Positions 4,481 to 49,119 of a stretch of 64,000 bases of DNA are shown here, in pieces. The position numbers and the translations under genes are program-made. Source of the DNA: Tamarix chinensis (Eukaryota; Streptophyta; Magnoliopsida; Caryophyllales; Tamaricaceae). The stretch covers positions 7,383,391 through 7,447,390 of the forward strand of contig CM060174.1 of the NCBI GenBank assembly GCA_030549775.1, written 5' to 3'. The notes beneath the pieces were generated by a model, which had not been told where the DNA came from, made no database searches, and saw nothing but the letters and a program-made list of their open reading frames with translations. How positions within the stretch are numbered: the stretch's first letter is position 1; each line of letters opens with the position of its first letter.

Positions 4481-5129
4481 TAGAGCCGGTAAAAATTGGT
4501 CTGATCTGAAAAATCCGACGAATACTAACTCGATCTGTCCGAAATTTAATCTGATTTTAACTGAAAAATTAGACGCCTGAAATTTATCCGACCCAATCCA
4601 ATACATATCCGATATCCGATATAACTCGAGAAATCATACACCCGAAATTAATCCGACTCGACCCGACACTCAACTGAAACCCGATATAACCCGTAAAACT
4701 ATAAATCTAAAATTACCCGATCCGATCCATCATTTATCCGAAATCCGATATAATCCGAAAAAATATAAATTTATAAAGATTCAACCCGGTACTACCCGAA
4801 AATTAACATTAATTCATTACTCAAAATTTTCAAAACTTCATAAAACAAGAAATAATATAGATGTACAACTAGTCCACACTAGTACTTATATCAAAATCTA
4901 GAAACAATATACATTCTTAAAGTTTATATCACTTCTTATGTATATACAAGTACAATATATATTGATACTAATATTGAAGTATAGACATAAAAGTAGCGAA
5001 AAAAACTCTACTATACCATCTAAATATTAGTTCACTTCCATATAGTACATTAAAATAATAATAGTTCAAATACATCCAACACCTTAAACTCAAGATACAA
5101 GCTTCAAACACTACTACAGAAACAGGAAA

Positions 5130-5345
5130 TAATAACGGGACACTAATAACGGTGGTTCGAAAACCGTCGTCAAATCCGTGAAAATTAATGCGCAGGAAGT
5201 TTTAATAACGGTTTTACGTAATAACCGTTATTACAAGTGTAAGGTAAAATTTTGCATGGGAATTTTAATAACGGTTCAAACAAGAACCGTTGTCAAAATT
5301 GGCAAGGTTTTAATAACGGTTCTTACAGGAACCGTTATTAAAATC
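5130..5345. repeat. Left subterminal palindromic array of the CACTA element
   Basis: Repeated TTTTAATAACGGTT paired with AACCGTTATTA forms about four imperfect palindromes with short loops. Such arrays are where CACTA-encoded binding proteins attach in En/Spm systems. That role is known for the family and inferred here. Confidence 0.8.
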
Positions 5346-5349
5346 TCCT

Positions 5350-5620
5350 TTTATTTCGTTCTCTTCTGTTTCGTGTCAAAAATTTCAGACTCTGCCGCTT
5401 CCCTCTCGTACTCTCTTTCTCTTGCGAACTCTTGCACCACCGTTCCGGCTCCTCTGAATTAAGGGAAACCGTCGCACCGCCATCTCTCCACCACCCCTCT
5501 GCCATTCTTGCGAACGTAGCCAGCATTTGTACCTTCGTCGTTGCCGTTCTCAACTTGTACACCGTCGCTCCCTTTACGTACGTGTTGTTCTTCCTTCATT
5601 GCTTAATTTGTCTCTACTGA
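5350..5620 (+). promoter_or_regulatory. GC-rich leader-like block just inside the CACTA left end
   Basis: Base composition jumps here from AT-rich to balanced and CT-rich. Several frames are open across the block, none convincing. It ends near CTTTACGTACGTG, which could be a GTACGT splice donor (about 5577). The layout suits a transcribed leader exon whose promoter lies in the subterminal array, spliced to the ORF at 6786 whose ATG follows a TTTGTAG acceptor-like site. It could equally be a captured host exon. I did not recognise a protein. Confidence 0.35.
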
Positions 5621-6087
5621 TATGTATATATATATATAAATGCATGCATGTTGCACCGAAGATGTTGTGTTTGATGTGTTGTTCGAAAATCTGTTGTTTG
5701 ATGTGTTGGTGAAAAATTTTGTTGTGGCCTTTTTTTATTGTGGCCGGCCGAGACCTTAATATATATATATATATGTGTGTGTTTATAATCTATTTTATAA
5801 AAATATGTATTATTATTTTAAGAGAATCCACAAGCCTAAAATATATATTATTATCATAAGATATGTACGTTCTAAGTATAAAATTAAGGTGTATATATTT
5901 TTTTTAGCACTCACATTATTATATATGCAGATGATCATGTGTATTTATATGCTTTTTTTAATATATATTTTGTAAGACGTGTATGTTTGCTTTTCCGTAA
6001 AATGTGTGTTTATATGTTTTCTATTATATGTATATATATTTATAATATATTTATATATAAGATGTGTATATATAATCTTAAATAATT

Positions 6088-6295
6088 GTGGTTAGGGTTA
6101 GGGTTGGGGTTAGGGGGAGGGTTAGTGTTAGGGTTAGGGTTAGGGTTAGCTATAGGTTTAGGATCATTATCTTATGAGGTTTAGTATTATTTTTTATTAT
6201 AATTTATTAGGATTAATTATTGTTAGGGTTAGGGGGAGGGTTAGGGTTAGGGGGAGGGGAGGGGGAGGGTTAGGGTTAGGGTTAGGGTTAGGGTT
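6088..6295. repeat. Human-type telomere-like repeats (TTAGGG)n inside the CACTA
   Basis: Two blocks (about 6088-6150 and 6222-6295) consist of GGTTAGGGTTAGGG units mixed with GGGGTTAGGGGGAGGG. The unit is the 6-bp TTAGGG, not the 7-bp TTTAGGG usual in plants. Most lies on the plus strand and could form G-quadruplexes. They sit between the leader-like block and the first ORF, perhaps within an intron. Confidence 0.85.
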
Positions 6296-6785
6296 TATCG
6301 TTTATTATACTAAATATAAACTAGGGCTATAAGGAAAAATCCTAAGGATAAGGGTATTGTGCATGGGGAAAAGTTGAGGAGGTTGGTTGGGCATCGGTGT
6401 TGTGATCGATAAAAATTAAATAGAGATGAATAATTGTGTATAATAATAATAATAATAATAATCATATAAGATTTATTAGATTGTACTATATATATATATA
6501 TATTATCTTATTAATATCTACTTGATTTTACTATGCGTAGCTTGAATGATTTGATGATAGTTTGATGTTTAGCCAGTGTGTTAAATATATAACTAAAGAT
6601 TATGTCCTTATTTTAAATAGTTTGATGTTGTTAGGTTTACATAGTTGGTTATGATCTGGTAGAATATATTTATGATTTGTCTAGCTAGTTGAAGATCAGT
6701 TTACATATTCTGTAATTTAGATCCTTTTAATTTCGAGAACAACCTTGATGATAAGATTTAGTGGTTCTCATTTGTAGGTAGTGAG

Positions 6786-7259
6786 ATGACATACCTTCCA
6801 CTATATTTTCATATGGCGCCACATAGAGATGTACAGACTCATGTGATATGGTTATATGACGAGCTATGTTATTTGTACGCGAGTAGCTCATCCTATCACC
6901 CCTTCCATTTCAGATCTTATCACCTTCTGTTGACCCTGCCTCAAATAGAGCCATGGGCATCGGCTACGTCTATTTTTTTGCAGTGGTTTGTCTACCACAC
7001 CGATGCACCACACCCGAGATTTATTGAGGGTGAGTTGTTTTCTAGAGAGTATGATAGGATATCGAGAGAACTGATGGTCATCGATGATGAGTGGAGGTAT
7101 CGTCATAGCTTGCCTCGGAGTATCCACCTCGGTTACCCTAGAGTATCCGTGAGTAGACTCTTATTTGATGATGTCAGGGATCAAATGATATATCGTGATG
7201 AGTGGAATTTTATAGTTATAGTTTTTAGTCGGGCTCGACGAGGCTATCGGGGGATTTAG
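6786..7259 (+). CDS. Unknown 157-aa ORF, first gene of the CACTA element
   Basis: I do not recognise this protein. The frame is open for 157 codons in a region where other frames are broken. Its composition is protein-like, with many aromatic and charged residues (segments such as VIWLYDELCYLY and RDEWNFIVIVFSRARRGYRG) and no low complexity, signal peptide or clear membrane span. The ATG lies 11 bp after TTTGTAG, an acceptor-like site, so it may be the main coding exon of a gene whose leader is at 5350-5620. It precedes the transposase by about 400 bp on the same strand. It may be an accessory protein of the element or a captured host fragment; the sequence does not decide which. Confidence 0.4.
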   Translation: MTYLPLYFHMAPHRDVQTHVIWLYDELCYLYASSSSYHPFHFRSYHLLLTLPQIEPWASATSIFLQWFVYHTDAPHPRFIEGELFSREYDRISRELMVIDDEWRYRHSLPRSIHLGYPRVSVSRLLFDDVRDQMIYRDEWNFIVIVFSRARRGYRGI

Positions 7260-7655
7260 TTTTAGATATGAGTTTTCATTTTTTAGGTATTTGAGTTGTA
7301 GCAACATTTTGATGTATATAGTGCTGCTATTGCTTAAATCCTGTAGTATGCATATCTTTTGTAAATTGAACTATTAATTGTATAATATTTTGCTACATTT
7401 GTATGCATATATATATATATATATATATATATAATGAACTCTTTGTAAGTATGAGGAGTTTCATTGATCAGCATTAATATAATTTTGAAAACTTGTTAGC
7501 ATGATTCGTATATATATATATATAGAGAGAGAGAATAGCATGATACATTTGAGATTAATTCTTTCTAAGCAAGAGTGATTTGAAAATTATTATACTTATA
7601 ATTCAATTAATTTTTAATAATTACTTTCATGGGGATATATCTAGATTCAAATAAT

Positions 7656-10600
7656 ATGGATCGGAAATTGTTGTCTACAAATCGTCTGTCTAGAGAATAT
7701 AACAAAGGAGTGAAGTTTTTCATCAAGTTTGCAGTTGAACATGCTCGGGACTCTAGTAGAATAGTTTGTCCTTGTTTGAAGTGTACTTATATTCAGCGTG
7801 TCAATGCTAATGATTTGAGAGATCATTTATTTGTGTATGGAATTGATACAAGTTACACTTGTTGGATATGGCATGGGAAAACAGAGTCTAAATATGAAAA
7901 TGACGATGTTGGGAGGGATAGTAGTGGATCATCATTTGATAACTATGAGGGACATTTGTTAGAGGAGATGACTCAAAAGGTTGAGGAAAGTGTTCGGGAT
8001 TGTCCAAAAATGTTTGAGAAGTTATTGAATGACTCGGAGAAACCTTTGTACGGTGATTGTAAGACGTTTACGCGATTATCCGCTACTTTAAGGTTGTACA
8101 ATTTAAAGGCATGTAACGGATGGAGTGATAAGAGTTTCACAGAATTATTGTCACTTGTGAAGGATATGCTTCCTGATGATACCCGATCGTACGTATGAAG
8201 CAAAGAAGATTCTATCCTCTATGGGCATGATTTATGAGAAGATACATGCATGCCCTAATGATTGTATTTTATATCGCAATGACAATGCATCTTTGGATAG
8301 TTGTCCTAATCCTGAATGCAAAGCATCACAATACAAGAAGAACAAGGTGCCCGCTAAGGTGTTATGGTATTTTCCTATAATACCAAGATTAAGGCGGATG
8401 TTTAATGATATTGAAGATGCCAAGAACCTAAGATGGCATGCTGATGACAAGATAGATGACGGGCTTCTTAGACATCCATCCGACTCTCCACAATGGATGA
8501 CGATTGATGGGTTGTTTCCTAAATTTGGTAAAGAAGCAAGAAATGTGCGCCTTGCGCTTTTTGCAGATGGAATGAATCCACACAATCAAGGCAGCTACAC
8601 TTTGTGGCCAGTGATTTTGGTTATATACAATTTACCTCCGTGGCTCTATATGAAATGCAAGTATATGATGTTGTCTTTACTCATTTCTGGGCTAAACCAA
8701 CCTGGGAATGATATTGATGTTTATTTGGCACCTTTGATTGATGATTTGAAGTTCTTATGGGACATGGGCGTTGAAGTATTTGATGCATATGGTCAAGAAA
8801 ATTTCACTTTGAGAGCATTGTTATTCTGTACTATAAATGATTTTCCGGTGTATGGCAACTTGTCAGGTTATAGTGTGAAAGGCCATTATGCATGTACGAT
8901 ATGTGAGGAGAATACTTCATTTTTTCAGCTAACACATGGCCGAAAGACTGTGTTCCTTGGGTATCGTAGGTTTTTATCGAAGAATCATCATTATCGTAGC
9001 CAAAGAAAAGCGTTCAATGGATTCCGAGAAGAAGGGCAGGCACCAATCCGGTTGACGGGTTGACAAGTGTGGCTAAAGATGAAACATTTGAGTGTCAAGT
9101 TTGGGAAGAAGAATAAAGATAAGCCTCCATCAGTTGGGTGGAAGAAGATGTCAATATTCTTCAACCTTCCTTATTGGGAATCTTTCTATGTGAGGCATGC
9201 CCTTGATGTGATGCATATTGAGAAAAATATATGTGACAGTCTTGTTGGCACGTTACTTAATGTTCCACGCAAGACTAAAGATGGGATAAATGCTCAAATG
9301 GATATGGAAGAAATGGGTATTAGACGGGAACTGACACCGCGAGACAACGGAAGAAGAACATATTTACAGCCAGCGTGTCATACTCTTTCCAGAAAAGAGA
9401 AAATTTCATTTTGTGAATTCTTGCACGGTGTCAAGGTCTGGGAAGGGTATTCTTCAAATTTCAGAAGGCTCGTGTCGATGAAAGAGTTGAAATTAATTAA
9501 CATGAAGTCTCATGATTGTCATATCTTGATGCAGCACTTGTTGCCGATAGTTATACGTGGAATTATGCCAAAACGTGTTTGAATTACTATCACGAGGCTT
9601 TGTTGGTTTTTTAAAGTCGTCTGCTCTAAAGTTATACATTCTGATAGTTTGGACGCCTTGCAAAAAGGGATTGTGGTTATTTTGTGCCAACTTGAAATGT
9701 ATTTTCCACCGTCATTCTTTGACATTATGGTACATCTAACTGTTCATTTAGTTTATGAGATAAAGATGTTAGGACCTGTTCATGGGCATTGGATGTACCC
9801 CTTTGAACGGTTTATGAATTTGATAAAAGGTTATGTGAAGAATCAATATCGGCCAGAAGGATGTATTGTTGAGAGTTTCCTGGTGGAAGAGGCATTTGAG
9901 TTTTGCACAAAGTACTTGTCAAATGTTGAAACTATTGGTATTCCTAAGTCTCGACATGCGGGCAAATTTGAAGGACATGGTATTAGAGGCAGACAGTTTG
10001 GGCGTGTAGACCCTAACATGTTCCGTGCATCACATCTATATGTATTACACAACAGTGATGATGTTCAGCCGTACATTGAAGAGCATATGACTTCTTTACG
10101 GATTGAAAATCCATCCAAGACTGAGAAATGGATTATCGATAAACATAATCTTTCCTTTATTGATTGGATAAGAGATCGCATCATTCCACTCATCGATCAT
10201 TCCCCAACTTTAATTTCCGAAACCCTGCATTGGTTGTCTCAGAAACCTCGTTATGAAGTTTTTCAATATACCAGTTATGTGATCAATGGTTGCACTTTTT
10301 ATACAAAAGAACAAGATGGGAAGAATACAATGCAGAATAGTGGGGTGACTTTAGTGGCTGAGGCAATGCATGTTGCTAGTGCGAAAGACAAGAATCTAAC
10401 TTATGCAGATATGAATTATTATGGTGTGATTGAACATATATGGGAGTTAGATTACACAGTATTTAAAATCCCTGTATTCGGTTGTAGATGGGTTGATAAC
10501 GGCAGTGGGGTTAGATATGAAGATGCATTCACATTAGTAGATCTTAATAGGGCAGGGCATAAACAAGACCCATTCATCTTAGTATCACAAGCGACACAAG

Positions 10601-10743
10601 TATTCTATGTCACTGACCCTGCTGATAACAGATGGTCTGTAGTACTATCTACGAAAAAAGAAATGCCAATGAATGTGATGATGAAAATGATGCCAATTGG
10701 AATAACGAGTGTGTCTCAGCTGTGCAAGCAACTCAATTATTAA
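7656..10743 (+). pseudogene. tnp2-like: TNP2-type CACTA transposase, broken
   Basis: This is the DDE-type transposase of En/Spm elements, which cuts at the CACTA ends. In order it shows the N-terminal transposase-associated region (7656 to about 7900, with CPCLKC), the TNP2 core from 8176 (CPNDCILYR; FADGMNPHNQG with Asp codon 8566-8568; DVYLAPLIDDL), LDVMHIEKN near 9210, a DUF4218-like region (FFDIMVHLTVHL, HWMYPFERF) and a DUF4216-like region near 10440-10660. I prefer the ATG at 7656 (MDRK) to the upstream 7629. Lesions: a frame change around 8170-8200, an in-frame TGA at 9061-9063, and TGA at 9580-9582 where relatives carry Arg (CGA to TGA). The frame otherwise continues unbroken through both stops. 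Beyond about 10665 another frame looks more natural (acidic), suggesting a further indel. Confidence 0.9.
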
Positions 10744-10979
10744 ACGATGATACCAATACAATTAATGAGAGGAAATATATGTCAGGGATGATCATCGTGA
10801 AGTAATATATGTATCAGATCCTGAATCTAATCCAAAAACAAGGGGGGAAAAAGAAGGAAAAGAAGGCAATGAGGGTAATAATATTGTAACATATAATATC
10901 TATGTTGGTTTTTTTCAACTCAATTATGCTCAATACATAACATTCTAACATAATTTATTTATTGATTTCTTTTAGAGAT

Positions 10980-13900
10980 ATGGCCAATAAGAATATTGAT
11001 AGGGACAACAATGATGAAGAAGGGAAAAGAGGGACGACAATTATGAGAATCATCACAGATATGAGGAATAAAGGAGAACTAGTCGAGTTGGGATGGAATA
11101 CTTACAATCTTCCCATTGGCCCTTATGCAGACATGTTTTTAACTTACATTTCACTTGTGACACGTAACCATGTTCCTATCTCCTATAATAATTGGAAGCA
11201 GGTTCCAACGGGTCATAAGGAGCATATTTGGCAGGAAATCACGGTAAATATACTATTTTATGTAATCATTTATGTATGTAAAATGTTAATAATTTTAATA
11301 CATTAATATCGGTATACATTTGCATGTCTTATAATGCAGAGAGTATTTAATGTGCCAGAGAGTAGGAAGAAATGGCTTCTTAGACATTGTGGGGAGCGTC
11401 TAAGAACATTTAGGTCATTTTTAGCTCGTAGGAAAATGTACAGAAAGAGTGATGGTTCTCTACGGCAGAATCCACCCAAACGATACGGTTTCACCGATCA
11501 AGAAAGTTGGAACCAATTTATTGCATATCGTCTTACGGGTGATTTTAAGGTATTTGTTAGATAACAATTAAATTTTTTTTATCGATCCTAGTATTGTGCA
11601 TAATATTGAAATAACTATGTTACTATGTTTTGGCTGGTGACATAGGAAAAAAGTGCCAAAAATAAAGAGATTGCAAAGCAAAATAAATACCGGCATAATA
11701 TGGCTCGCAAAGGTTATCCAGGCCTTGAAGAGGAGTTGGTATGTATTTTGTGATTTATCTATTTACAGCGTATTGACGAATTTTATAATATTGGTACATT
11801 ATAAGAATATTTTTTGATTTATAGCTCATAGCCCAAGACTTAGACCCATATACTTCGTCCATTAATATTGGTACATTATGGAAGAAGGCTAGAGCAACAA
11901 AAGATGGATATAATAATGAAGATGTAGATGTTGCAGCGAAAAAAATTGGAAGTTTGTAGATATCTGGAACCCTGCTTACTTTTCTTTTAGAAAACTATTA
12001 TATTATACTTATTCATGTAAGCTAATTTTACATATATTATATACATTACAGGACAAACTTCAAGCGTTAGATGATGAGGAGGGGGTAGACCAATATAACA
12101 TTGTATCACAGGCTATAGGAATTGTAGAACACCTTGGAAGACACAGGGGTCTTGGATTAGGTGTTACGAAAACGAGCATACGTGGTCGATCTCGTGGTTC
12201 TCGTAACACTGATGAGCAAGTCGCCATCCTTACACAGAAATTGAACGTGGCATTTGAACGGATGGCAACAATGGAGCAAGAGTTGTCATTTATTAAATCT
12301 CAAGGGTATAAGCCATCCGATTCAGTCGACCATGATCAGCTTCACATGCCTAATGTAAATAGTGTCAGAGACAGTTGTGAAGCTGATGCACGTCTTTCTT
12401 CTCTTTCTGAGGTAAGCATTACATAACTTTGAATTGTTATTAAATGTATTTGGTGTCATAAATAATTAATAATGTGTAATATTTTTGTTTAGGGTTTGCA
12501 TAAATGTGACTTGTTAGCGAATGATCTTTCAACTCTTTTGGCGAAAGGAAGGGTCTGCATCAGTCACAATACCCAAACGCAAACTATCCACGGGTACAAC
12601 TTAGCCCTACTTACAATGCCGGAGAGTATTGACACTCCAATCATTGGTAGTGCGTCCTTGCCTTGTTATAAAGAGGGCGATGAGGCAACCACAATGCTAG
12701 AAGCTCATGGAAGCTTCGTGCCTTGGCATGTGGATCAGATACGTCTCACTACTGAAGAGGTATTGACATTCAATATCTTCATTAGACCTAGTTTAGTAGT
12801 TACATTATTTATACCTTTTTCATATATATATGCTCAATACATATTTTGTTTATTATTATTATTTAAGGAATCAAAGAAGAAGACTGCTCCTGCTAGTAAA
12901 ACTAAGAGAGGTACTAGTAGAACGAGCAACACAAAAGAAGGCGCTGCCAAAGGAAAGAGAGATAAATCTGAAAAATCAGTTGCCCCACAAAAGATTCGTT
13001 CTTCGGAAATACGCCAACCTCCACCAACATTAGCTTTATTGTATTTCTATGCCCAAAACTACCTCGGGAATAATTATATTTCCATTTATTGTCGTCCTGA
13101 GTATGTTGGAAGGGATGATGCTACTTACATGGTATCGACAGTTGACATAAGCGATATTTATAATCAGGAATGGATGTCAACCACGAGTGTCGCTGTTTAT
13201 GTCATGTAAGCATTATTTCATATTTCAGATTTTAGTACTCTTGGAGAAATAGAATTTTTACGACCTCTTAAGCTTATATGAGTTATTAGTTATTAACAAA
13301 TATCCATTATTATTGTCGTCCATATATAGGTTGGTAGCTAGTCGCGCTGCGTTGGAGGGAATGTTGTCCTCTATTATTTTTGTGTGCCCATACTACATAG
13401 CTGACAGTAGTACAATAACAGAGGGTAGGCACATAAACTATTTAGCGGATCGCATTTTGATTGAGGGACACAACAAGCTCTATCTCATTTCTCACCTCGC
13501 AACTGAACATTGGGTTTTGTACGCCGTCCGACCTGATCTTAATAAAGTTTATGTGGTTGATTCCCTTCGAACCTATGACGTGCCTTTTGAGGTCGCTCGT
13601 CGTGGTGGGAAGGAATTTATAGACATGTTAGTATACTTTTCACTTCTTACTTCATTAGATTATTTATACATATATATATATATTCTACTTTCATTATTTG
13701 AGGTATATATACTTACAATATTATGTATCCAACTCTATTTATTAGGGCACTACGGACGGCATATCAAAGGAGAGGTGGGAATGGTGTCCCAGACCCAAAG
13801 AATCTTCAATATGAGCCTATCATGGTAAATAGGAAGACAACTATTTTGTATTTTGTTTTAATTCAAATTAATATATAATAGTTAGAGAGCTAACTGAATT

Positions 13901-14213
13901 CATTTGACAGTGTCCACAACAGCAAAACGACGATGATTGTGGATACTATGTATGTAGAGCAATGGATCTTATAGTCCAGAATAGATCGGTCAACATAGAT
14001 CCAAGCCATGTATGTTTGCTTTTCCATATTTTTCTATTAATGAATCATGACATATATATTTTTGACCTAATGGCTAACTGTATATTAATTGAAACATGGG
14101 TGTTGTAGTTTTTCACCGATGACTATGCACAAGGCCAGCAATATAATGTTGATGAAATTGATGAAGTTAGAGACCAATGGGCCAAGCACGTGCACTCATT
14201 CATTCGGTATTAG
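10980..14213 (+). CDS. Multi-exon transposase-like / Ulp1 (C48) cysteine protease gene of the CACTA element
   Basis: Inferred exons: 10980-11243, 11340-11549, 11646-11738, 11825-11947, 12052-12411, 12493-12759, 12868-13205, 13330-13626, 13746-13824, 13911-14009, 14109-14213, giving about 744 aa. Every junction keeps phase and ten of ten acceptors are AG. Nine donors are GT; the donor after exon 4 reads GGAAGT instead of GTAAGT. Exons 1-5 resemble the plant En/Spm transposase family (PF03004-like; WKQVPTGHKEHIW, then GLGLGVTKTSIRGRSRG). Exon 6 looks like the DUF8039-type region often found with it, and exon 7 has a Lys-rich linker. Exons 8-11 form a Ulp1 SUMO-protease-like domain with His612 (EHW), Asp629 (VVDS), Gln682 and Cys687 (DDDCGYYVC), the full catalytic set. 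Ulp1 proteases cleave SUMO; the substrate of the transposon versions is unknown. The single donor lesion would cause read-through to a stop unless another site is used. Confidence 0.8.
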
Positions 14214-14554
14214 GTAGCGATCTATATATTCTACATGCATTTTCAGGTTTGTATTTTGTCTACATCTTTTGGTCTTCCAATCTAGATCTGTGAACTCTTT
14301 ACTTTGGGGTGTAGAGCTACCAAGTTGTGGTATGCCCACTAATTTTTATTCCTAAGTATAGTTGGTGTATTGAGACATGCATACCAATTATAGATTGATT
14401 GAAATTATGGTGTGATACCCTGCTGGTATGAATTGATGTTGTTTTACATTGCAGATTTGGTAATTGTTTGAACATACAACTGTGTATGTGTGCGGGAACA
14501 AAACAGAAAAATGCTAAAAATATATATATACTTTTAATAATGGTTCTATGAAAA
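14214..14554. other. 3' region of the protease gene
   Basis: Non-coding sequence between the protease stop and the right subterminal array, probably 3' UTR and terminator. No clear polyadenylation signal stands out. Confidence 0.4.
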
Positions 14555-15135
14555 CCTTTATTAAAACCTATGATTTAATAACGATTTTAAATAAAACCGT
14601 TATTAAAAACTCAAGTTTTAATAACGGTTTCTCATAGAACCATTATTAAAAACTCAGGTTTTAATAACGGTTTCCCATAGAACCGTTATTAAAGCATAGG
14701 TTTTAATAACGGTTTTGTTTACGAACCGCTATTAAAACTCCTTATAATCTGGTATTTATGTGCATTTAATGCATATTAGAGGGTTTAACAAACGTATAAT
14801 CAATGTCCAAAACGGTAATTCGATGATGTTTTAACAACGGTTTTTGTATTAACCGTTATTAATACATGGTTTTCAACAATGGTTTTTTCTTATAAATCGT
14901 TATGAAAACCTTATTTTTAACAACAGTTTACTGTGAAACCGTTATTAAAAGATCCTTTTTAACAACGGTTTTTAAGTAAAAACCGTTATTAAATATGAAG
15001 TTTACGCACATATTCGCGGGTTTTTGTGTATTTTTCATGACGGTTATGAACCGTTATTAAAGATATAATAACGGGCGATTCAATAACGGTTGAAAACCGT
15101 TATTAAAACTATAAAATAACCGTTATTAAAAGCCC
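14555..15135. repeat. Right subterminal palindromic array of the CACTA element
   Basis: About ten imperfect palindromes built from TTTTAATAACGGTTT and AACCGTTATTAAAA with 5-12 bp loops, the same motif as at the left end but more copies. The array stops about 15 bp before the terminal TAGTG. Confidence 0.85.
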
Positions 15136-15153
15136 TTTTCCGTGGTAGTGAAA

Positions 15154-20245: not shown

Positions 20246-20280
<35 letters not shown>

Positions 20281-20281
<1 letters not shown>

Positions 20282-21320
20282 AATATTTTTACTTGTAAAA
20301 TTTACAAATGTTTAAAGCAATAAAATATAATACAATTAAAACTTATGAATATCTTTATTATTTTCCTTTGTAAAAATAAAACACATATAATATTCTTATT
20401 GTATCTATCTTTACTAGTGATCTTATGATTGTATTGTATCTAATATATATAATGTAATAAATGATAATTATACATTGTATATTCTTGTTATGCTCACCTT
20501 TATTTTATAAAATTATCTTTTTTTAAGTAATCAATTAAATATAATATACAATAAACATCTAATATTTTTACATGTAAAATTTATAAATGTTTAAAGAAAT
20601 CAAATATAATACTATTAAAACTTATAAATATATTTATTATTTACCTTTGTAAAAATAAAACACATATAATACTCTTATTTCATTTATCTTTACTAATAAT
20701 CTTATGATTGTATTGTATCTAATATATACAATGTAATAAATGATAATTATACATTGTTTATTCTTGTTATGCTCACCTTTATTTTATAAAATTATCTTTT
20801 TTTAAGTAATCAAATATTTTAACTAATTAAGTAAATATAATATATTATAAATATCTAATATTTTTACTTTTAAAATTTATAAATATTTTAAGTAATCGAA
20901 TATAATACTATTAAAACTTATAAATATTTTTATTATTTACCTTTGTAAAAATAAAACACATATAATATTCTTATTTCATTTATCTTTACTAGTAATCTTA
21001 TTATTATATCAATATATACAATGTAATAAATGATAATTAATTATACATTATATAGTCTTGTTTTGATCATCTTGATTTTATAAAATTATCTTTTTTTAAC
21101 TAATTAAATATTTTAAGTTATCAAATAAATTATAATCAATGATAAATATCTTTGTTTGATTCAAAGCTCAATATTTTTTATTATTAAAATTTATAAATAT
21201 CTTTACTATTTATTTGTGAAAATAAAGCGCATTTAATATTTTTAATTCTTTTATCTGCAATATTAATCTTATGATTGTCTGTCTCTAATATTTATGATTT
21301 ATGAAATGATAATTACTTAG
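20281..21320. repeat. Tandem array, ~280-315 bp unit, 4 copies
   Basis: Copies begin near 20281, 20560, 20856 and 21169, each with TAATATTTTTAC..TAAAATTT. Each then has CCTTTGTAAAAATAAAACAC, a TCTTATGATTGTATTGTATC block and TTTTATAAAATTATCTTTTT in the same order. Similarity is highest between the first three and falls off in the fourth. It is AT-rich and non-coding, a small satellite-like amplification within the transposon. A (TA)n run at about 20249-20279 precedes it. Confidence 0.85.
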
Positions 21321-26709: not shown

Positions 26710-28361
26710 ATAATTTTATTTATTCCGATAGCCGGTTCATTTAATTAAACCTCAAAATTGTTCGGTTTGATTCCTAATTGCAACTACACTCAATCAAAAA
26801 GTAAATGGCCTGTGGACGTGCGGCAAAATTCAACCAGATGTATGTATGTGATCCACCAGTAGGTACGCGTCGTAATGGGGGCGAGAAATTCTCCTCTCGA
26901 GAATAGTATATCCATTTATTTTAGGTCGATTTTTCCTAAACTTTATTGGCCCAACTAATCAAACAAAGCTCTGTCGGCTAAATTAATAGTTAAAATAAAG
27001 GTAATATGTATGATACATGTTGATATTTTCAGATATATTTTTTATATAAATTAACTTATTTTAAGATAATTTATAGTAAATGGTGGTAAAAAAGAGTTTC
27101 GATACTTTTGAAGCTTTAAAAATAAAATAGTAATGCATTAAGTTTTAGATACATACTACATAGATAACCATGATGTAAGATGGTTGTCACTATACAACAC
27201 ACCCTGAATGCGCATCACTATTTTGGAGTGGTTATTTACTTTTGAAAGTTAAACACATTGTATCTTCGGGATTTTTTTTTTTAATTTATTTGGAGAACAT
27301 TAGCTCAAATAGTCTTCTAATTTATTCGATTGTGGATGCTCCGATGATCAAAAACTTCAAAGGACATTATTTTCAAATATCTAAAATTGTCAAAAACTAA
27401 ATATTTTATTGCAAAACAGAAAGATGAGGCTATACAACTCGTTTGATTATAGCAAAATTGTGCAGCATTTTAAAATACATGCAGTTTGTCTAATAGGTAG
27501 GTTCCTGAGTACTCATTAAGACTTTCATTTTTTTTGCCTATAATTATTTAACTATTAAATTGTATATAAATATACAATTTATTTGGTGAATTTAAATGGT
27601 ACTTTTGTTTTTTACTTTCGGTACCATTAACAAGCGTCGTTGAACACTTGTTAGAAAAATTATTTTAAAAATCATAAATTGCATCAATCAAAATAAATTA
27701 ATAATTTGATAGTAATGTGCTTACCAAACACAACCTAGATAATATAGTGATTTGAAAAGTTGAGAGTCGAGACAACGAAGGTATCTGGTAATTAACATAT
27801 TCAGCAACAAAAACAATTGAGGGAAATTAATAAACGTGACTAGCCAATATGCTAATTTATTTATGCGATAGAGAATAAAGTTAACAGAATCGCTAATCAT
27901 GGTCCTTAATAGTTAGGGCAATAATTTAAAATGTATGAACTACATGTGTATTTGATATTCCTTAACTATTAACTATTTCTATTTTTAACGTTTTAACCAC
28001 ATTTTTTAGAATTATCATTAGTATTTTTCTAAAAATAAATGCTACATTGACCTATATATGCTAATCTTCAAATTATTGTTCCCACCAATTTGTTTAAAAA
28101 CTTATTGGCTTTTTGTAATAGAAAAGTCTCCATTAATTACAAGTTATTAATCTACTATTTTTTTAAATAGTTACCGACGCGGACAATAAGATAAAAACAA
28201 TCAAAGCACAAAGAAAGATAAAAGGAAAAGAAAATAATGAGTGCTCCATAGACCCAATTTTTTTTTTTTTTTTTGCTCATGTCACCCACAAAAAACCCAT
28301 CTAACCTCTACCTAAAGCCCCCGGCCATGCTAAGCTTAGCGTCGCCATCATTTTCATCTTC
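26710..28361. other. AT-rich intergenic DNA
   Basis: I see nothing that can be named. A poly-T run lies at about 28258-28274. Confidence 0.5.
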
Positions 28362-28785
28362 TGTAATACCTCGTATTTTAGCTAATTATAATCCTAAGTA
28401 AATTATATCCTAACCTAATTCTAATCTCAAAAAATTTATATTTCTACCTAACCTCGGATGGTTGTTAATTAAATTATAATAATACCCTAACCTAAATTAT
28501 TTTAACCTAGATCTAATTTTAAACCACACTTATTTTTTCTTTCCCTTTTCCCCCTCTTCTTTCTTCTTCTTTTCCTCAATCGGCTAACTTTCTGTTATTT
28601 TCTCATTTTCTTTCTGTGTGAAACATTATCCCAAGACAATGCCTTTGACATCTATCATACCACCATTACCTACATCCTACTATCATCGTCTCCCACCTCC
28701 ACCTCCTATGCATGGGGGTTTGCTGCTTTAATAATGTTACACGATTGTCCCTTTTCCTTCCCTTGTATGCATGTATATATATAAC
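28362..28785 (+). repeat. Truncated Ty3/gypsy-type LTR head
   Basis: It begins TGTAATACCTCG, a typical LTR head of Tekay/Del-type chromoviruses. It continues with the CCTAACCT-rich, then CT-rich profile seen at 56941 (both share an AAAAAATTWATATTTCTACC block). After about 420 bp another LTR head starts, so this copy is cut off. Confidence 0.5.
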
Positions 28786-31700
28786 TATAATACCCCGAAA
28801 TTTCGTAACCTTTGCTTTTGGGTATTAGCCTTTTTATTCAAAAATAACCCTTAAACCTTAGTCTGATTATTTTTATTTATAACATTTGCCCCATAACCTA
28901 AATAAACTCCTAAATATTTTCCTTGACTATTTTACCTTTTTCCTTCCTATTAAACTTATCCTAAATCGGATTATTTTTCCTAATTATTTTTCTACCCAAT
29001 ATCCTAAACTAACCAAATTAAACCTAAAACTAAAATAAACTAAACCTATTTTAGCCTCCTAAATTTACCCTTTTGTGCCCCGATCCCTCCCCCATTCACT
29101 CTCACTGCCTCCTTCCTTACTACACTATACTCAATCCATTTGCGTGTAAATATATACATACATATACATGAACACACTATCTTTCCCCAACTCCCTCTCT
29201 CTCAACCCTAGCCTTCCTCAATCAAACCATCCCTCATTCCCCTATCTTTTCTTTGTTTAATTATTCTCCACCTTATCAGCACCCAAACACACCACCATAG
29301 CCTTTGCACCATCACCCAGCAACCACTACTTACATGTGCACCATCACCACCTCTCATGCACCACTAACCACAACCATCCAACCCTCCAGTCATGCACCAT
29401 ATTCACCAGCCACAACCATCTAGCCACACAACACACTCCAGCACCACCTACCACCTTACTTCTTCTTCTTCTTACCCTCAATTTCGTGTGTCGTCCCTTT
29501 TTGTACGCACCACCACAGCCTCCATTACCAGCCTTCCTCTTCTCTTTCTTCTCCTTTTCTTCTTCTTCTTTATCCCATATTGCCCTTGTTTTTCTTTTCT
29601 CCTTCCCTGCGATAATTTTTGCCAATCCCTTCCCTAACCCTTTTGTTGCTTCTCTCGCAACATCCCCCAAGGCAACGGCAGTTTTTGCCGGTGCATGCCC
29701 CTATCCTCTCGACCCTCGCTGTTGCAGCACCACTTACAATCCCTACACCACCATTAGTCGTGCCACCCTTGACCCTAGTTCCTCCCAACTGAGCCACCCT
29801 CCCAGCCTTCTAATCACCCCATCCTCACAATCACTACCCGTCTTCGACCCCACCTCTTCTTCCTCTCATTTTCTTTTTCTCCCTTTCTCCTCCTCTTCCT
29901 CTAGGTCTCTAGGTCTAGTTGTTTTGTCTCTCCATCCTATGTGCACGACTTGTGCACCTACCTATGCCTCAATAATGCATCTCCATCTTTACGTGCACAA
30001 CCGTGCCTTGCTGTATGACCTGCTCATGCTCCTTCTTGCGCACGTCTCTGGGCCTTCCTACACCACCCTCCTTGCAACCACTAGCCCACTAAGCCACTAC
30101 CAACTCCACCACCCTCCACCATCTGATCCAACACCATCCCCTGCACCAACCTCCTCGCAACCACCAACCCAACACCCCCTCGTGCACCCCTGCTCACTCT
30201 ACATGCATATCGTGAGGAAGTTTGGGTTAAAAATACCTATTATTAATAAGTAAGGGACTCATGGTAATTTCTAAAAATAAATATTTTATTATTATAAATA
30301 TTATTTTATTCACTAAATATTAATATGGTATTTTTATATTAGTTTTATGTGTAAACGTTGATTAGCAGGATCTCATAGCATGTAGTAGGATGCTGCTATT
30401 TTTGAGTTTTTAGTGAAATTCGAGTAACTTTTATACTCTCTTTAAATGCTAAATTTTGCATGACACCACATAATGATTTTTATGTCTGAAAATTGTTAAG
30501 CATGAGTCGTTATATTATAATTATATGTTAGCTATTATATCATGAAATTTTTTATAAAAAAGCATGTTATCATATGTAAAATATTTTGGGTACAAAAGTA
30601 TGGCAAAATGATATCTCATGATTAACTATAAAATGTACGGGGAAAATGAAAAGGATATGCATGTTTAGATATATTTATGGACTAATAATCATGGATGTAT
30701 TCCCTAAGGGAAATTTGATCATTTTATGGGTATTATGATTTTTACCATAACAATCATGTCTAATATGTATTACATGTTGTTAAGCATGAGCTTATGTGAT
30801 CATAGATGCATTAGATAAGCATTTTAGGGTTATATATATAAAATCTTGAATAAGGGGAAAAATGGTCATGCTAATAATTTAACTCTATAATAAATTAATT
30901 TAATTATTATGTTTTAGCCTTTTTATGACAAAGCTATAAATGAAATGGATTTAGTAATTAAAGAGAATTTTAATGTGGTAATTTTGACCTTAGGGGCATT
31001 TTAGTCATTTTTAGCCTAATGTACCAAAAAGTGAATAACTGGTCCTAGGATGGCCTTAGCATATTTTTATGAATGACATTGGTAATGACCTTATTTATGG
31101 TTGTCTCAAAATAATTGAAAGTGAGTAAAAATGTTAATCATGAAAATTGGGTCTATGTGATTGTATGTGATTTAGTGGTCACATTGATAAAATACTAATA
31201 CTTAAAGTGGAAGACCTTGAAATCTAGAATGATGGTTCTTTAGGGGTCGCTACCCTCAAGATGTGGTTTAGCCCACATTTGATTCTGGATATTTGCTGGT
31301 GTGCTTTAATACCCTAGCTAGACTCTATATTTTACTATATTATATTTTATGGGCTGATAGGAGGTATGCATACTTATGGATCAGGTGTTCTTGTCTGTAG
31401 GATACCGTGTTAGATTTATATACCAGTGCAACTAGGGTATCTTTATGGCTTTGAGTTGATAATCGGTAAGATACTATGATGCCTTGGTACAACGATATGA
31501 CCGGAGTACCTTAGTGTCTCCAAATTGATTGATCTCCCCTTTAGTAAATAAAAATAGAAATGATTGATGGATTATTGGATAGGTTGGTAGTAGTCTTGGT
31601 GTTTATCTGTGGTTCGGTAATAGCCTTATTACCTACCTGTGGTTTGATAGCAGCCTATGTACCAACCTGTATTTTGGTAGTAGTCTTTGTATCTACCCGT

Positions 31701-37860: not shown

Positions 37861-37868
37861 CTATAAAT
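37861..37868 (+). promoter_or_regulatory. Possible TATA box of the MAKR gene
   Basis: CTATAAAT lies 74 bp before the inferred start codon, in a CT-rich leader-like region. If used, the 5' UTR would be about 50 nt. Other AT-rich boxes upstream are possible. Confidence 0.35.
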
Positions 37869-37941
37869 TCAATTCAATTTTGACCCTACAAAAGCCAGAA
37901 TTTTGTCCACCCTAATCCTTTATCCTATTCCCATCAACAAA

Positions 37942-39260
37942 ATGGAAGCATTAGCTTTACTCAAGTTCTGGAAATCCACCCCAAATACCATCGCTAAAAC
38001 CGCCTGTGGTACCACCATTTCCACCACCGGTAACTTTGACAACTCCTCTGTAAGCATCACTAACTCCAACATTCCCGACCAAACAAAACTAGGCAGTGAA
38101 TGTTTCAAAAACAACGATGTCAGCGATTCTGAAGATGACGAAGAGTCCTTCTTTGAGCTAGAGCTCAGATTACCTGATCACAACCTCCAATTCGAAAAAA
38201 ACGAAAGTGATTCTCAGGATATCTTGAAGAATGATTCTGAAGTACACAGGAACAGCTACGATTCTGACATCGATTCGGTTAACTGGACGCCGATTAATAG
38301 CTTGTTTGAGAAGTCGAAGCCTCGATCTCCGATCTCGACACTTCGACGATCGGCATCTCCCAAGCTTCGTGTCCTAATGTTCGGTAAGCTTCTTAAATCG
38401 AAAGTGCATAAACCGAAAGAAGTAGGAGCAGCAGGTGCTGCTGTGACAGAAATAGAAAGTGTCTGTAGCACCTACACTGCTCCCAGCTACTTTCAGTCAC
38501 AGAAACGGCAGCAGAAACGAAAACTCTTTACTGTTAAACTTAAAATGGACGACGCGTCCATTAATGGAAAGAAACTCACACGGAGCAACAGCTCGAGGGT
38601 CTCTACTTCTTCGTCTTCGTCATCCTCTTCTTCTTCGAGCCCGAAGCATCTGCCGAGGCAGTGCGTAGATTTCGATGGTGGGGTGTCCAAACGATTCTCC
38701 AAAGACTCGATTCAGAAGTACTTTAAACTAATTAAAAAGCCTCCGCACGCCAAGTCTCTAAGGAAGGCCAATGGCGAAACAGTGAAAGTCATGGATCTGT
38801 TTTCTGGTTCTGAGTCGACGGCGACTTCATTTCCGTCGCCATCGTTGATGTGTTCTCCGAAGAAATCTTGTAATTGCAAGGAGAGTAAGAGGTTTCGTGT
38901 TGCGTGTAATCATTTAGGAAAGAGTAAATCGGCATCAGCCATGGCTGTCGGCGGTGCCACTTCTCCGGCGTCGAGGCATGTGGTGCGAAGGAGCGATGAA
39001 GGAAATGGTATTGAAGGTGCTATATTACATTGTAAACGGTCGTTGAATTCCTGCTGCAAAGGTGCTTACGAAAACTTTGCTTCTTATAAACGTGCTTAGT
39101 GATAAGTGATATTTGAATTTAGTGTTTCCTTGATTAATAAATCATGTATGGTGAAGTGATTAACGTTTTAATTTATTTTGGTGTCGCAGAACCATATTTG
39201 CTATCGAGATGTGCCAGTGATCCGTCACAGGAGAAGTCAATTCTGATGATGTCCAAGTGA
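37942..39260 (+). CDS. MAKR-like: Membrane-associated kinase regulator (MAKR family), two exons
   Basis: MAKR proteins are plant-specific, plasma-membrane-attached, disordered regulators related to BKI1 that act with receptor kinases. The sequence shows the N-terminus MEALALLKFW, an acidic DSEDDEESFFELELRLPD near residue 62, a basic KSKVHKPKE patch, a poly-Ser tract near residues 220-237, a KKPPHAKSLRKA basic hook and the C-terminal GAILHCKRSLN box. I start at 37942 (AAAATGG context) because MEALALL matches the family start; an in-frame ATG at 37903 adds 13 atypical residues. The first frame runs to a stop at 39099. A better model splices 39061 (CAAAG|GTGCTT) to 39190 (GTCGCAG|AA) and ends at 39260 with YLLSRCASDPSQEKS, a family-like tail, giving 396 aa. 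The retained-intron form would be 385 aa. It is not clear which paralogue it is. Confidence 0.85.
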
Positions 39261-47868: not shown

Positions 47869-48487
47869 TGTGATGGAGGTTAGGAAGGACCTAGAGTGGA
47901 GGATTGTGTGCGTAACTTAAGGACGGTTTATGGTCAATTAATACATTTATGACAAATGTTTAATTAGTCCTTAGGAAACGGATGGTATAGTCAATTAGAG
48001 TATTAATTGACATTTAAGGCCTTTTATTAAAGGTATTGATTGTTTTCGTCCGTTACTTTTACCAAACTTTATGGTTGTTTTTAATCCTCAGGTTTGTAAC
48101 GTTTCACATTTAGTTCTAGGTTTTTTCTGAAGCCTATTTAAAGGCTCTTTTGTTTAGAGTAGAGAGATATGCAAAGTGAGGCATATGCACAATACATCCC
48201 GAGGGTGTGCGATAGATCTAAAGAGTAGATCTAGGAAATTCTCAATTGAAACGGGGTTTCGGCATTGAGTGAATTAATCAAGAGGGTTGTTCTTGATTAA
48301 TTGGTAAGATTAAAAACACGGGGAGAGTGTTCTTGATTCTTGTATAGCTTGAAAGGATAGCAATAAAGATTCAAGTTTGATAAATTCTTCTTTGATTTGT
48401 TATTATTCTGTATAGTGCTTGTATTCTTAGTTTTGAAGATTTTATTTTAGATCTCAAAACTGAGGTAATCACGGATATTTCCCAACA
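47869..48487 (+). repeat. Ty1/copia 5' LTR
   Basis: It starts TGTGATGGAGG and ends TTTCCCAACA, about 619 bp. A TATA box (TATTTAAA, 48135-48142) precedes the likely transcription start. The sequence TGGTATCAAAGCC (48490-48502), two bases after the end, is a near-consensus initiator-Met primer-binding site. No matching 3' LTR is in the window. The start is inferred from the TG and the profile. Confidence 0.65.
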
Positions 48488-48546
48488 AGTGGTATCAAAG
48501 CCGAGGTTTGTGTCGGATCTATCTGCTGGTTCAAGTCAGATTGAAG

Positions 48547-49119
48547 ATGGACAAGATCTTGGGAGGAGGGAAGTTAGTGATGGAATTGTTTGATGGAAGG
48601 AACAATTTTGCGCTATGGCAGAGTATGATCAAAGATGTTCTTATCCAGCAGGGACTGCATGCTACCCTGAACGATGAGAAGCCCACAGATGTGGATTATT
48701 CCAAGTGGGAGGATATGAAGTTGCGTGCAACTAGTACGATCCGGTTGGCCCTTGCTCCTGAAGTCAAGTATAACGTTCTTGAGGAAACAAGTCCGAAAGA
48801 ATTATGGGAAAAGCTAGCGAAGACATATGCGTCGAAGTCACTAGCCAACAAGTTATTCTTGAAGAAGGATCTTTTTTCGCTTGAGATGGCAGATGAAGGC
48901 AACCTACAAGATCATCTAAATATATTCAATGGACTGATCACCCAATTGAAGAGTTTAGATGAATCCTTTAAGGATGAGGATCAGACAGTCTTGTTATTAG
49001 CTTCTCTTCCGAAGAGGTTTGGTCCAGTGGTGACTAGCCTGTTGATAGGGAAGAAGACACTTTCTTTGGAAGAAACAATTTTGGTTTTGCTTGAGGCGGA
49101 AAAATGTGTTGATAGGTGA
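48547..49119 (+). CDS. gag: Ty1/copia Gag, N-terminal part, open but truncated
   Basis: The frame MDKILGGGKLVMELFDGRNN runs 190 codons to a stop. It matches the Gag polyprotein of plant copia elements (UBN2-type region): F.GRNNFALWQSMIKDVLI, then SKWEDMKLRATSTIRLAL, LWEKLAKTYASKS, LQDHLNIFNGLITQLKSLDE and LLASLPKRFGP. I start at 48547, 45 bp after the primer-binding site; an in-frame ATG 39 bp upstream is less family-like. The usual zinc knuckle (CX2CX4HX4C), protease and the rest of pol do not follow; the sequence after 49119 is unrelated, so the element is truncated. The absence of stops in this part suggests a fairly recent copy. Confidence 0.8.
   Translation: MDKILGGGKLVMELFDGRNNFALWQSMIKDVLIQQGLHATLNDEKPTDVDYSKWEDMKLRATSTIRLALAPEVKYNVLEETSPKELWEKLAKTYASKSLANKLFLKKDLFSLEMADEGNLQDHLNIFNGLITQLKSLDESFKDEDQTVLLLASLPKRFGPVVTSLLIGKKTLSLEETILVLLEAEKCVDR

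Follow-up and report, generated by a model that had tools for sequence, protein, structure and literature searches.

A TNPA-Ulp1 gene with a chance-intact reading frame in a decayed CACTA element of Tamarix chinensis

CACTA elements that carry a Ulp1-like protease (CACTA-ULP) are known in grapevine and rice (PMC2528002). The closest described architecture is CDA Type 4 (PMC8978399), which has CACTA ends with subterminal repeats and two open reading frames: ORF1, encoding TAD, Transposase_21, DUF4218, and DUF4216; and ORF2, encoding Transposase_24 and then Peptidase_C48. In the available part of that account, the six-domain type comes from Chenopodium iljinii and C. vulvaria alone; grapevine and Citrus supply near matches, and some grapevine proteins listed there have both Transposase_24 and Peptidase_C48. 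TnpA (Transposase_24) proteins of En/Spm-type elements bind subterminal repeats (PMC8195511). Here we describe a further element of this kind, found in 64,000 nucleotides of Tamarix chinensis DNA (contig CM060174.1, positions 7,383,391 to 7,447,390, forward strand; hereafter the window). Its second gene joins TNPA-type and C48 protease domains in an open frame, next to a transposase gene that is broken. That contrast is due to chance: across copies of the family, both genes decay after insertion at one near-neutral rate. Taken together, the observations quite probably describe a dead member of a CACTA family that is young and high in copy number, with a protease frame intact by chance, past selection on both genes, and a TNPA-Ulp1 protein that would act at the element ends.

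An earlier note, made from the sequence of the window, had placed the protease gene inside a CACTA element. Both ends and the target-site duplication (TSD) were located, which bears this out:

5106..5108: TSD, 5' copy, AAA, a perfect 3-bp match with 15151-15153
5109-15150: CACTA element, complete, with imperfect inverted ends
5109..5126: terminal inverted repeat, 5', CACTACTACAGAAACAGG
5109..5408: subterminal repeats, 5' side (first 300 bases), six exact copies of the TAATAACGGT motif
7470..7571, + strand: leader stretch, retained by transposase-less copies
14507..15150: subterminal repeats, 3' side (last 644 bases), 11 exact copies of TAATAACGGT
15133..15150: terminal inverted repeat, 3'
15151..15153: TSD, 3' copy, AAA, pairing with 5106-5108

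The element has the marks of the CACTA (En/Spm) superfamily: CACTA terminal inverted repeats with a 3-bp TSD; a Transposase_21 (TNPD) gene (E 1.6e-81), broken in this copy; and short subterminal repeats in both orientations. An exact-motif count finds no TAATAACGGT in the 9.1-kb middle of the element and none in the remaining 53,956 bases of the window. Both ends are dense in TAATAACGG repeats. TAD, Transposase_21, DUF4218, DUF4216, Transposase_24, and Peptidase_C48 all score above their Pfam cut-offs; because this six-domain combination is already described as Type 4, the element is of a known kind, and is a new case of the CACTA-ULP architecture. Its end and repeat sequences are different from those of the Chenopodium elements. 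The available text of PMC8978399 describes no selection test and, among its four types, no transposase-less derivative. The grapevine elements (Cactavine-2, -3, -4, -5, and -13) likewise combine a CACTA transposase with a ULP1-like region, but the part of PMC2528002 at hand describes neither a Transposase_24 fusion nor a selection analysis.

Two smaller features lie within the element: a 165-codon open frame upstream of the transposase (window 6762-7259), with no Pfam match; and short arrays of GGTTAG hexamers (window 6090-6295), with similar runs in transposase-less copies.

The earlier note had joined 11 exons in phase to about 744 codons without a stop, and re-derivation gave the same model:

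10980..14213, + strand: TNPA-Ulp1 gene, 11 exons, 744 codons
10980-11243, 11340-11549, 11646-11738, 11825-11947, + strand: exons 1-4
12052-12411, 12493-12759, 12868-13205, 13330-13626, + strand: exons 5-8
13746-13824, 13911-14009, 14109-14213, + strand: exons 9-11
11496..12171, + strand: Transposase_24 (TNPA-type), exons 2-5, residues 141-270 (Pfam E 6.1e-8, 33.4 bits, cut-off 28.7)
11948..11953, + strand: exon-4 donor GGAAGT, a private lesion where other copies have GTAAGT
13478..14003, + strand: Peptidase_C48 catalytic domain, residues 602-708 (Pfam E 7.2e-9, 36.2 bits, cut-off 20.7)
13508, 13559, 13920, 13938, + strand: C48 residues H612, D629, Q681, and C687, respectively

The joined exons end in TAG after 744 codons without an internal stop, an open frame with a chance of about 1.5e-22 by base composition; read in its other two frames, the spliced sequence has 31 and 86 stops. 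Nine of the ten introns are GT-AG. An old copy of the element, C7 (70-78% identical), keeps GT at 10/10 donors and AG at 7/10 acceptors, which supports the exon model from genomic DNA rather than from RNA. Transposase_24 precedes C48 in this one gene by Pfam, a domain absent from the earlier account, and identifies the second gene of the element as TNPA. Like TnpA of En/Spm-type elements (PMC8195511), the protein has Transposase_24, is encoded by a multi-exon second gene, and is expected to bind subterminal repeats; unlike TnpA, as there described, it is fused to a C48 protease.

The protease part belongs to the Ulp1/C48 family by its Pfam match above cut-off and by the presence of the His, Asp, Gln, and Cys residues. 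His612, Asp629, and Cys687 stand as first assigned, whereas the proposed Gln682 gives way to Q681: alignment pairs Q681, and not Q682, with the second Gln of the SENP1 PQQM motif, which we take to be the active-site Gln. Protein searches with the spliced gene found no relatives in a database rich in plant transposases, and an NCBIfam scan gave no match.

The neighboring transposase gene is damaged in several places:

7656..10743, + strand: TNPD-type transposase gene, broken, identified by its Pfam domains
8179..8180, + strand: frameshift by 8-base loss; the bases are present in 8/8 covering copies (L011, L012, L019, L031, L033-L036)
9061..9063, + strand: in-frame TGA, also TGA in L011 and L034, sense in seven other covering copies
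9580..9582, + strand: in-frame TGA; CGA in L012, L031, and L033-L036, CAA in L011 and L019, TAA in C7
10653..10768, + strand: one base lost near 10653 (against 5/5 copies) and one near 10768 (against 4/5), both in the transposase tail

The frameshift and two stops listed earlier are thus all present, but that count was too low because single bases are also lost near 10653 and 10768. The frameshift at about 8179 and the TGA at 9061 fall within regions that protein relatives read through; the relatives stop short of 9580. Pfam recognizes Transpos_assoc (9.1e-20), Transposase_21 (1.6e-81), DUF4218 (7.4e-41), and DUF4216 (1.1e-18). Among the best 120 of 1,710 protein relatives, identity is at most 70% and the named organisms are flowering plants, plus one frog record; single scans of transposase pieces against viral contigs, and against bacterial and archaeal contigs, found no relative. 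Conserved columns of the transposase core were examined with the 85 full-coverage relatives among those 120. Unusual residues numbered 0/35, 1/51, 5/90, 9/114, and 11/133 at five thresholds, at or near the median of the relatives and slightly higher at 114 and 133 columns. Since there is no clear excess, the loss of the transposase is recent too.

Related copies were sought in the source genome assembly (1.32 Gb, 28 contigs) in two ways. A C48 profile search found at least 28 places (150 of 2,075 candidates scored), the window copy not among them; 13 of the 28 belong to this CACTA family by tblastn, and 11 were counted, the partial copies L004 and L026 being excluded. A DNA search with the protease gene scored 40 places including the window, of 4,807 candidates, all 95-97% identical to the gene in the window; the 12 best-scoring matches besides the window are called the close copies (L031-L042). 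The protease gene was compared over 23 other copies (L011-L014, L016, L017, L019, L025, L027, L030, C7, and L031-L042). For the transposase, L032 was excluded because its transposase is deleted; L025, whose transposase is partial, does not enter the ten-copy stop count, and the nine-copy counts omit both L025 and C7. Changes unique to one copy (singletons) and changes common to several copies (shared) were counted apart. The ratio of nonsynonymous (N) to synonymous (S) change, pN/pS, was judged against a neutral simulation with the intron spectrum (mean about 1, range 0.58-2.17 for 50 changes).

Over ten two-gene copies including the window, the two genes are equally decayed: stops occupy 53/7,413 protease codons and 66/9,643 transposase codons (7.15 and 6.84 per 1,000; Fisher P=0.85). 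The six youngest two-gene copies agree, with 13/4,464 against 22/5,964 (P=0.61). Such parallel decay of the two genes in other copies had been named beforehand as the result that would refute a special status for the protease. The close copies L031-L042 carry, in order, 2, 5, 3, 4, 2, 2, 3, 2, 2, 0, 4, and 2 protease stops (total 31, mean 2.6), and at that mean the probability of finding none in one copy is about 0.08. One of them, L040, has no protease stop yet carries a frameshift and two lost donors.

Changes in the window copy itself also look near neutral. Against the majority of 13 close copies, its protease shows 31 N, 10 S, and no stops (pN/pS 0.86); the codons unique to the window count 18 N and 6 S; and the pairwise protease dN/dS with L025, the nearest of the copies found first, is 0.97. 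Within the window alone the contrast is weak. Three transposase lesions to none in the protease has P 0.19-0.21, and five to none P 0.063-0.075; with the donor lesion counted, 3:1 gives P 0.43-0.47 and 5:1 gives P 0.20-0.23. The equal decay, the near-neutral changes in the window, and the private donor lesion together mean that the frame owes its survival to luck. The earlier note had offered two alternatives, selection on the protease and a chance difference in a fairly young element; chance stands, and selection on the window copy falls away. Finding one frame intact and its neighbor broken in a single copy is no evidence of selection.

The exon-4 donor, GGAAGT where GTAAGT is expected, had been noted as the only lesion of the gene and is a true one: the junction reads ATT|GTAAGT in 12/12 close copies and in C7. 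Because all the close copies keep GTAAGT, the GG donor is private to the window copy. Read-through into intron 4 would meet a stop after three codons. Exon 4 is 123 nt long with phase 0-0, so skipping it would leave the frame intact, with a loss of 41 residues within the Transposase_24 region. The TNPA-Ulp1 gene of the window is therefore probably not intact despite its open frame, since the full-length product needs an unusual GG-AG intron and exon-4 skipping costs those 41 residues.

In L011, L019, and L025 the same splice site is hit differently, the donor there reading ATAAGT. A broken exon-4 donor was considered as a marker of a sub-lineage on the strength of these three copies, but was rejected because of GTAAGT in 12/12 close copies.

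The family has a different past. Over nine two-gene copies, pN/pS is 0.86 for singletons and 0.29 for shared changes in the protease, and 0.66 and 0.34 in the transposase; the prediction that dN/dS would fall below 1 in the protease only thus fails, the constraint on shared changes being similar in the two genes. Other samples give the same picture: over 17 copies the protease values are 0.95 (singletons) and 0.31 (shared), and over 13 close copies 0.85 and 0.42, with seven shared stops. Shared protease change in the 17 copies is constrained in every part (0.18 for residues 1-140, 0.26 for Transposase_24, 0.39 for the middle, and 0.38 for C48). Pairwise dN/dS with the old copy C7 is 0.30 for the transposase and 0.33 for the protease. 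The stem leading to the young group carries 14 N and 27 S (0.14) in the protease and 17 N and 14 S (0.30) in the transposase, a difference with P=0.10; one stem deeper, the respective counts are 24 N and 31 S (0.20) and 19 N and 26 S (0.18). Cys687 is retained in 22/23 other copies and is Tyr in C7. Constrained shared changes beside near-neutral singletons indicate that selection kept both genes while the family spread, and that both drifted after insertion.

Several points tell against this account. Single close copies range in pN/pS from 0.33 to 1.52, some lying under the neutral range. Transposase singletons (0.58-0.66) fall under protease singletons (0.83-0.95), for which we have no explanation, and the young-stem count of the transposase cannot be told apart from that of its singletons (P=0.15). 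Copies L011-L030 and C7 entered the sample by way of the C48 search, a route that favors copies whose C48 exons can still be read. The shared class includes repeated hits, since stops at 11199, 11232, and 12109 recur in copies distant on the tree.

Six copies (L013, L014, L016, L017, L027, and L030) show no match to the transposase within the 10-kb stretches retrieved for them, and retain TNPA-Ulp1. All six share one junction, which runs from the leader end at 7571 to 10923 through a common filler of about 30 bases; the filler lacks 12 bases in L013 and three in L014. They form one group (bootstrap 100), nested among transposase-bearing copies. Two of them, L013 (5,147 bp) and L016 (5,559 bp), are complete and are flanked by perfect TSDs of their own (TTT and ATA); L017 and L030 contain insertions of 4-5 kb. 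The repeat consensus TTAATAACGGTT is the same as that of the window in the four transposase-less copies examined, and L014 has fewer repeat sites (9 against 25). A separate event is seen in L032, a close copy with an internal transposase deletion from window 8184 to about 10778 and its protease gene kept.

Five of the six share a branch after L014 splits off. Because this junction and filler are also present in L014, which lies outside the five, changes on this branch postdate the transposase loss. The branch carries 10 N, 15 S, and no stops (pN/pS 0.185, or 0.16 if no tolerance is allowed and 0.20 if the out-group is enlarged), against 164 N and 60 S (0.75) for terminal changes in the same five copies (Fisher P=0.001). 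Compared with singletons of the six (200 N, 92 S), P is 0.007, which is conservative because those singletons include the branch changes themselves; compared with singletons of 17 copies, P is 1e-4. Without the C48 exons the branch still has 8 N and 13 S (P=0.007 against the six-copy singletons). On these few changes, the sequences indicate that the TNPA-Ulp1 gene stayed constrained in this lineage after its transposase was lost.

The weight on the other side is considerable. The branch rests on 25 codon changes. Changes common to some but not all of the five (16 N and 10 S, with four stops; 0.44) are not significantly different from those on the branch (P=0.16), and among all six the shared changes give pN/pS 0.63 with four stops; these partly shared changes lend no support to constraint later within the lineage. 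Each of the six copies now carries lesions; even L027, with no stop or frameshift, has lost its exon-1 donor and has Tyr for His612. L014 (5,222 bp) is complete but its TSD is only a near match (TCT/TGT), and the 3' end of L027 was looked for and not found. The branch constraint could thus be an artefact of few changes, or of sequence exchange between groups, since gene conversion is possible among copies so similar. With only 25 changes and no later constraint evident inside the group, this is a serious possibility, though below an even chance: the junction and filler shared with L014 place the branch after the loss, and both nodes have bootstrap 100.

The constraint reading would be that the transposase-less lineage kept TNPA-Ulp1 by purifying selection, as an end-specific anti-silencing factor serving mainly the copies that encode it, with catalysis borrowed from relatives of full length. 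We hold it tentatively, as rather doubtful, because of the 25 changes, the lack of later constraint, the finding of these copies through C48, and the lesions in all six. If true, Ulp1 is the part worth keeping once the transposase is lost. A literature search of open-licence papers (titles and abstract starts) found no report of a transposase-less CACTA lineage with TNPA-Ulp1.

How such a gene might work can be sketched. The second gene encodes a TNPA-like protein fused to a Ulp1-type cysteine protease, and in source copies, before insertion, both genes were under purifying selection, with constraint over the whole TNPA-Ulp1 gene, C48 included. The N-terminal part may bind the subterminal repeats. 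The protease, brought to the ends, might then remove SUMO or another ubiquitin-like tag from host proteins, and so weaken silencing or aid assembly of the transposition complex. Transposase-less elements would keep TNPA-Ulp1 and could borrow transposase because ends and binder are shared; continued constraint under those circumstances would need an advantage to the encoding copy, or few simultaneously active copies. What we infer concerns the substrate and effect of the Ulp1 part, and a role in transposition itself is equally open.

SUMO as the substrate is a guess. The C48 match of the protein is remote (36 bits), and comparison with solved structures gave no match below E 0.01. The parts consulted of two papers bear on it: plant C48 proteases include a deneddylase, and KIU proteases are judged unlikely to act on SUMO (PMC6117577); MOM1-PIAL2 links a SUMO ligase-like protein to transcriptional silencing in plants, and the same paper finds the MOM1-SUMO interaction not required for silencing (PMC6084981). 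The Kaonashi ULP-like (KIU) proteins of Mutator-like elements (MULEs) are also transposon-borne C48 proteases of unsettled purpose (PMC6117577, PMC6117582, PMC13317346), but belong to the Mutator superfamily and have a different partner domain. As reported there, they are numerous and silenced, with activity not assayed (PMC6117577, PMC6117582), and at least 97 MULEs have intact C48 domains (PMC6117577). The presence of Ulp1-like proteases in many plant transposons still calls for an explanation, and the present family lends itself to a natural test, since it has numerous close copies, a putative end-binding domain fused to the protease, and a sister lineage that lacks the transposase and in which the gene seems to stay constrained. 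If that constraint is borne out, the protease is of use to the element rather than luggage, and direct tests of its substrate and of its effect on silencing are feasible.

The protease may instead serve transposition itself, for example by processing the transposase or the excision complex, rather than escape from silencing. The TNPA position of the gene suits such a role, as does the requirement for both tnpA and tnpD in Spm transposition (cited in PMC8195511). The precedent of VANC points toward silencing escape: these motif-specific anti-silencing proteins are carried by other plant DNA transposons, VANDAL, as described in the available part of PMC5735166. VANC is an accessory protein that binds short repeated motifs in the non-coding DNA of its own element, and TNPA-Ulp1 is presumed to do likewise; anti-silencing was shown for VANC and is only conjectured for TNPA-Ulp1, and the comparison is one of described function. 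A role in transposition is quite possible, although we would not count it as probable.

It is improbable that the Ulp1 part derives from a host gene fragment that was captured and is carried as a passenger or camouflage, of no catalytic use to the element. Capture or camouflage has been proposed (PMC8978399), and CACTA elements do carry captured gene fragments (PMC2528002), as far as the available text of each goes. However, shared changes in C48 have pN/pS 0.38 against about 1 under neutrality, and Cys687 persists in 22/23 other copies, C7 having Tyr (weak evidence at such divergence).

Least credible, and largely refuted by near-neutral change and equal decay, is present selection on the protease of the window copy, whether domesticated or kept by the element, with the transposase free to decay: in its favor is a protease frame of 744 codons free of stops beside a transposase with five lesions (P 0.063-0.075 that none of the five would fall in the protease), but the window shows no purifying selection after insertion (31 N and 10 S, 41 changes in all, pN/pS 0.86), the exon-4 donor is privately broken, decay is equal over ten copies, and L040 is stop-free too, in spite of its frameshift and two broken donors.

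The rest of the window holds other features. Repeats of the TATCGTCGCTAAT type, in both orientations, lie at about 1200-1680 and perhaps mark the end of another DNA transposon. A Copia-type gag is found at 48469-49119 (Retrotran_gag_2, E 1.8e-31). A POX domain on the minus strand at 51774-52874 (E 6.4e-21) perhaps belongs to a BEL1-like homeobox gene; a frame near it, with no Pfam match, resembles what we take to be a homeodomain end. A 410-codon open frame at 37867-39099, with no Pfam match from the ATG at 37939, is perhaps a real host gene. GC skew reaches -0.57 over the 2 kb at 28001-30000, where there is a 330-codon open frame of simple composition. An AT-rich 279-bp unit occurs in three tandem copies at 20258-21113.

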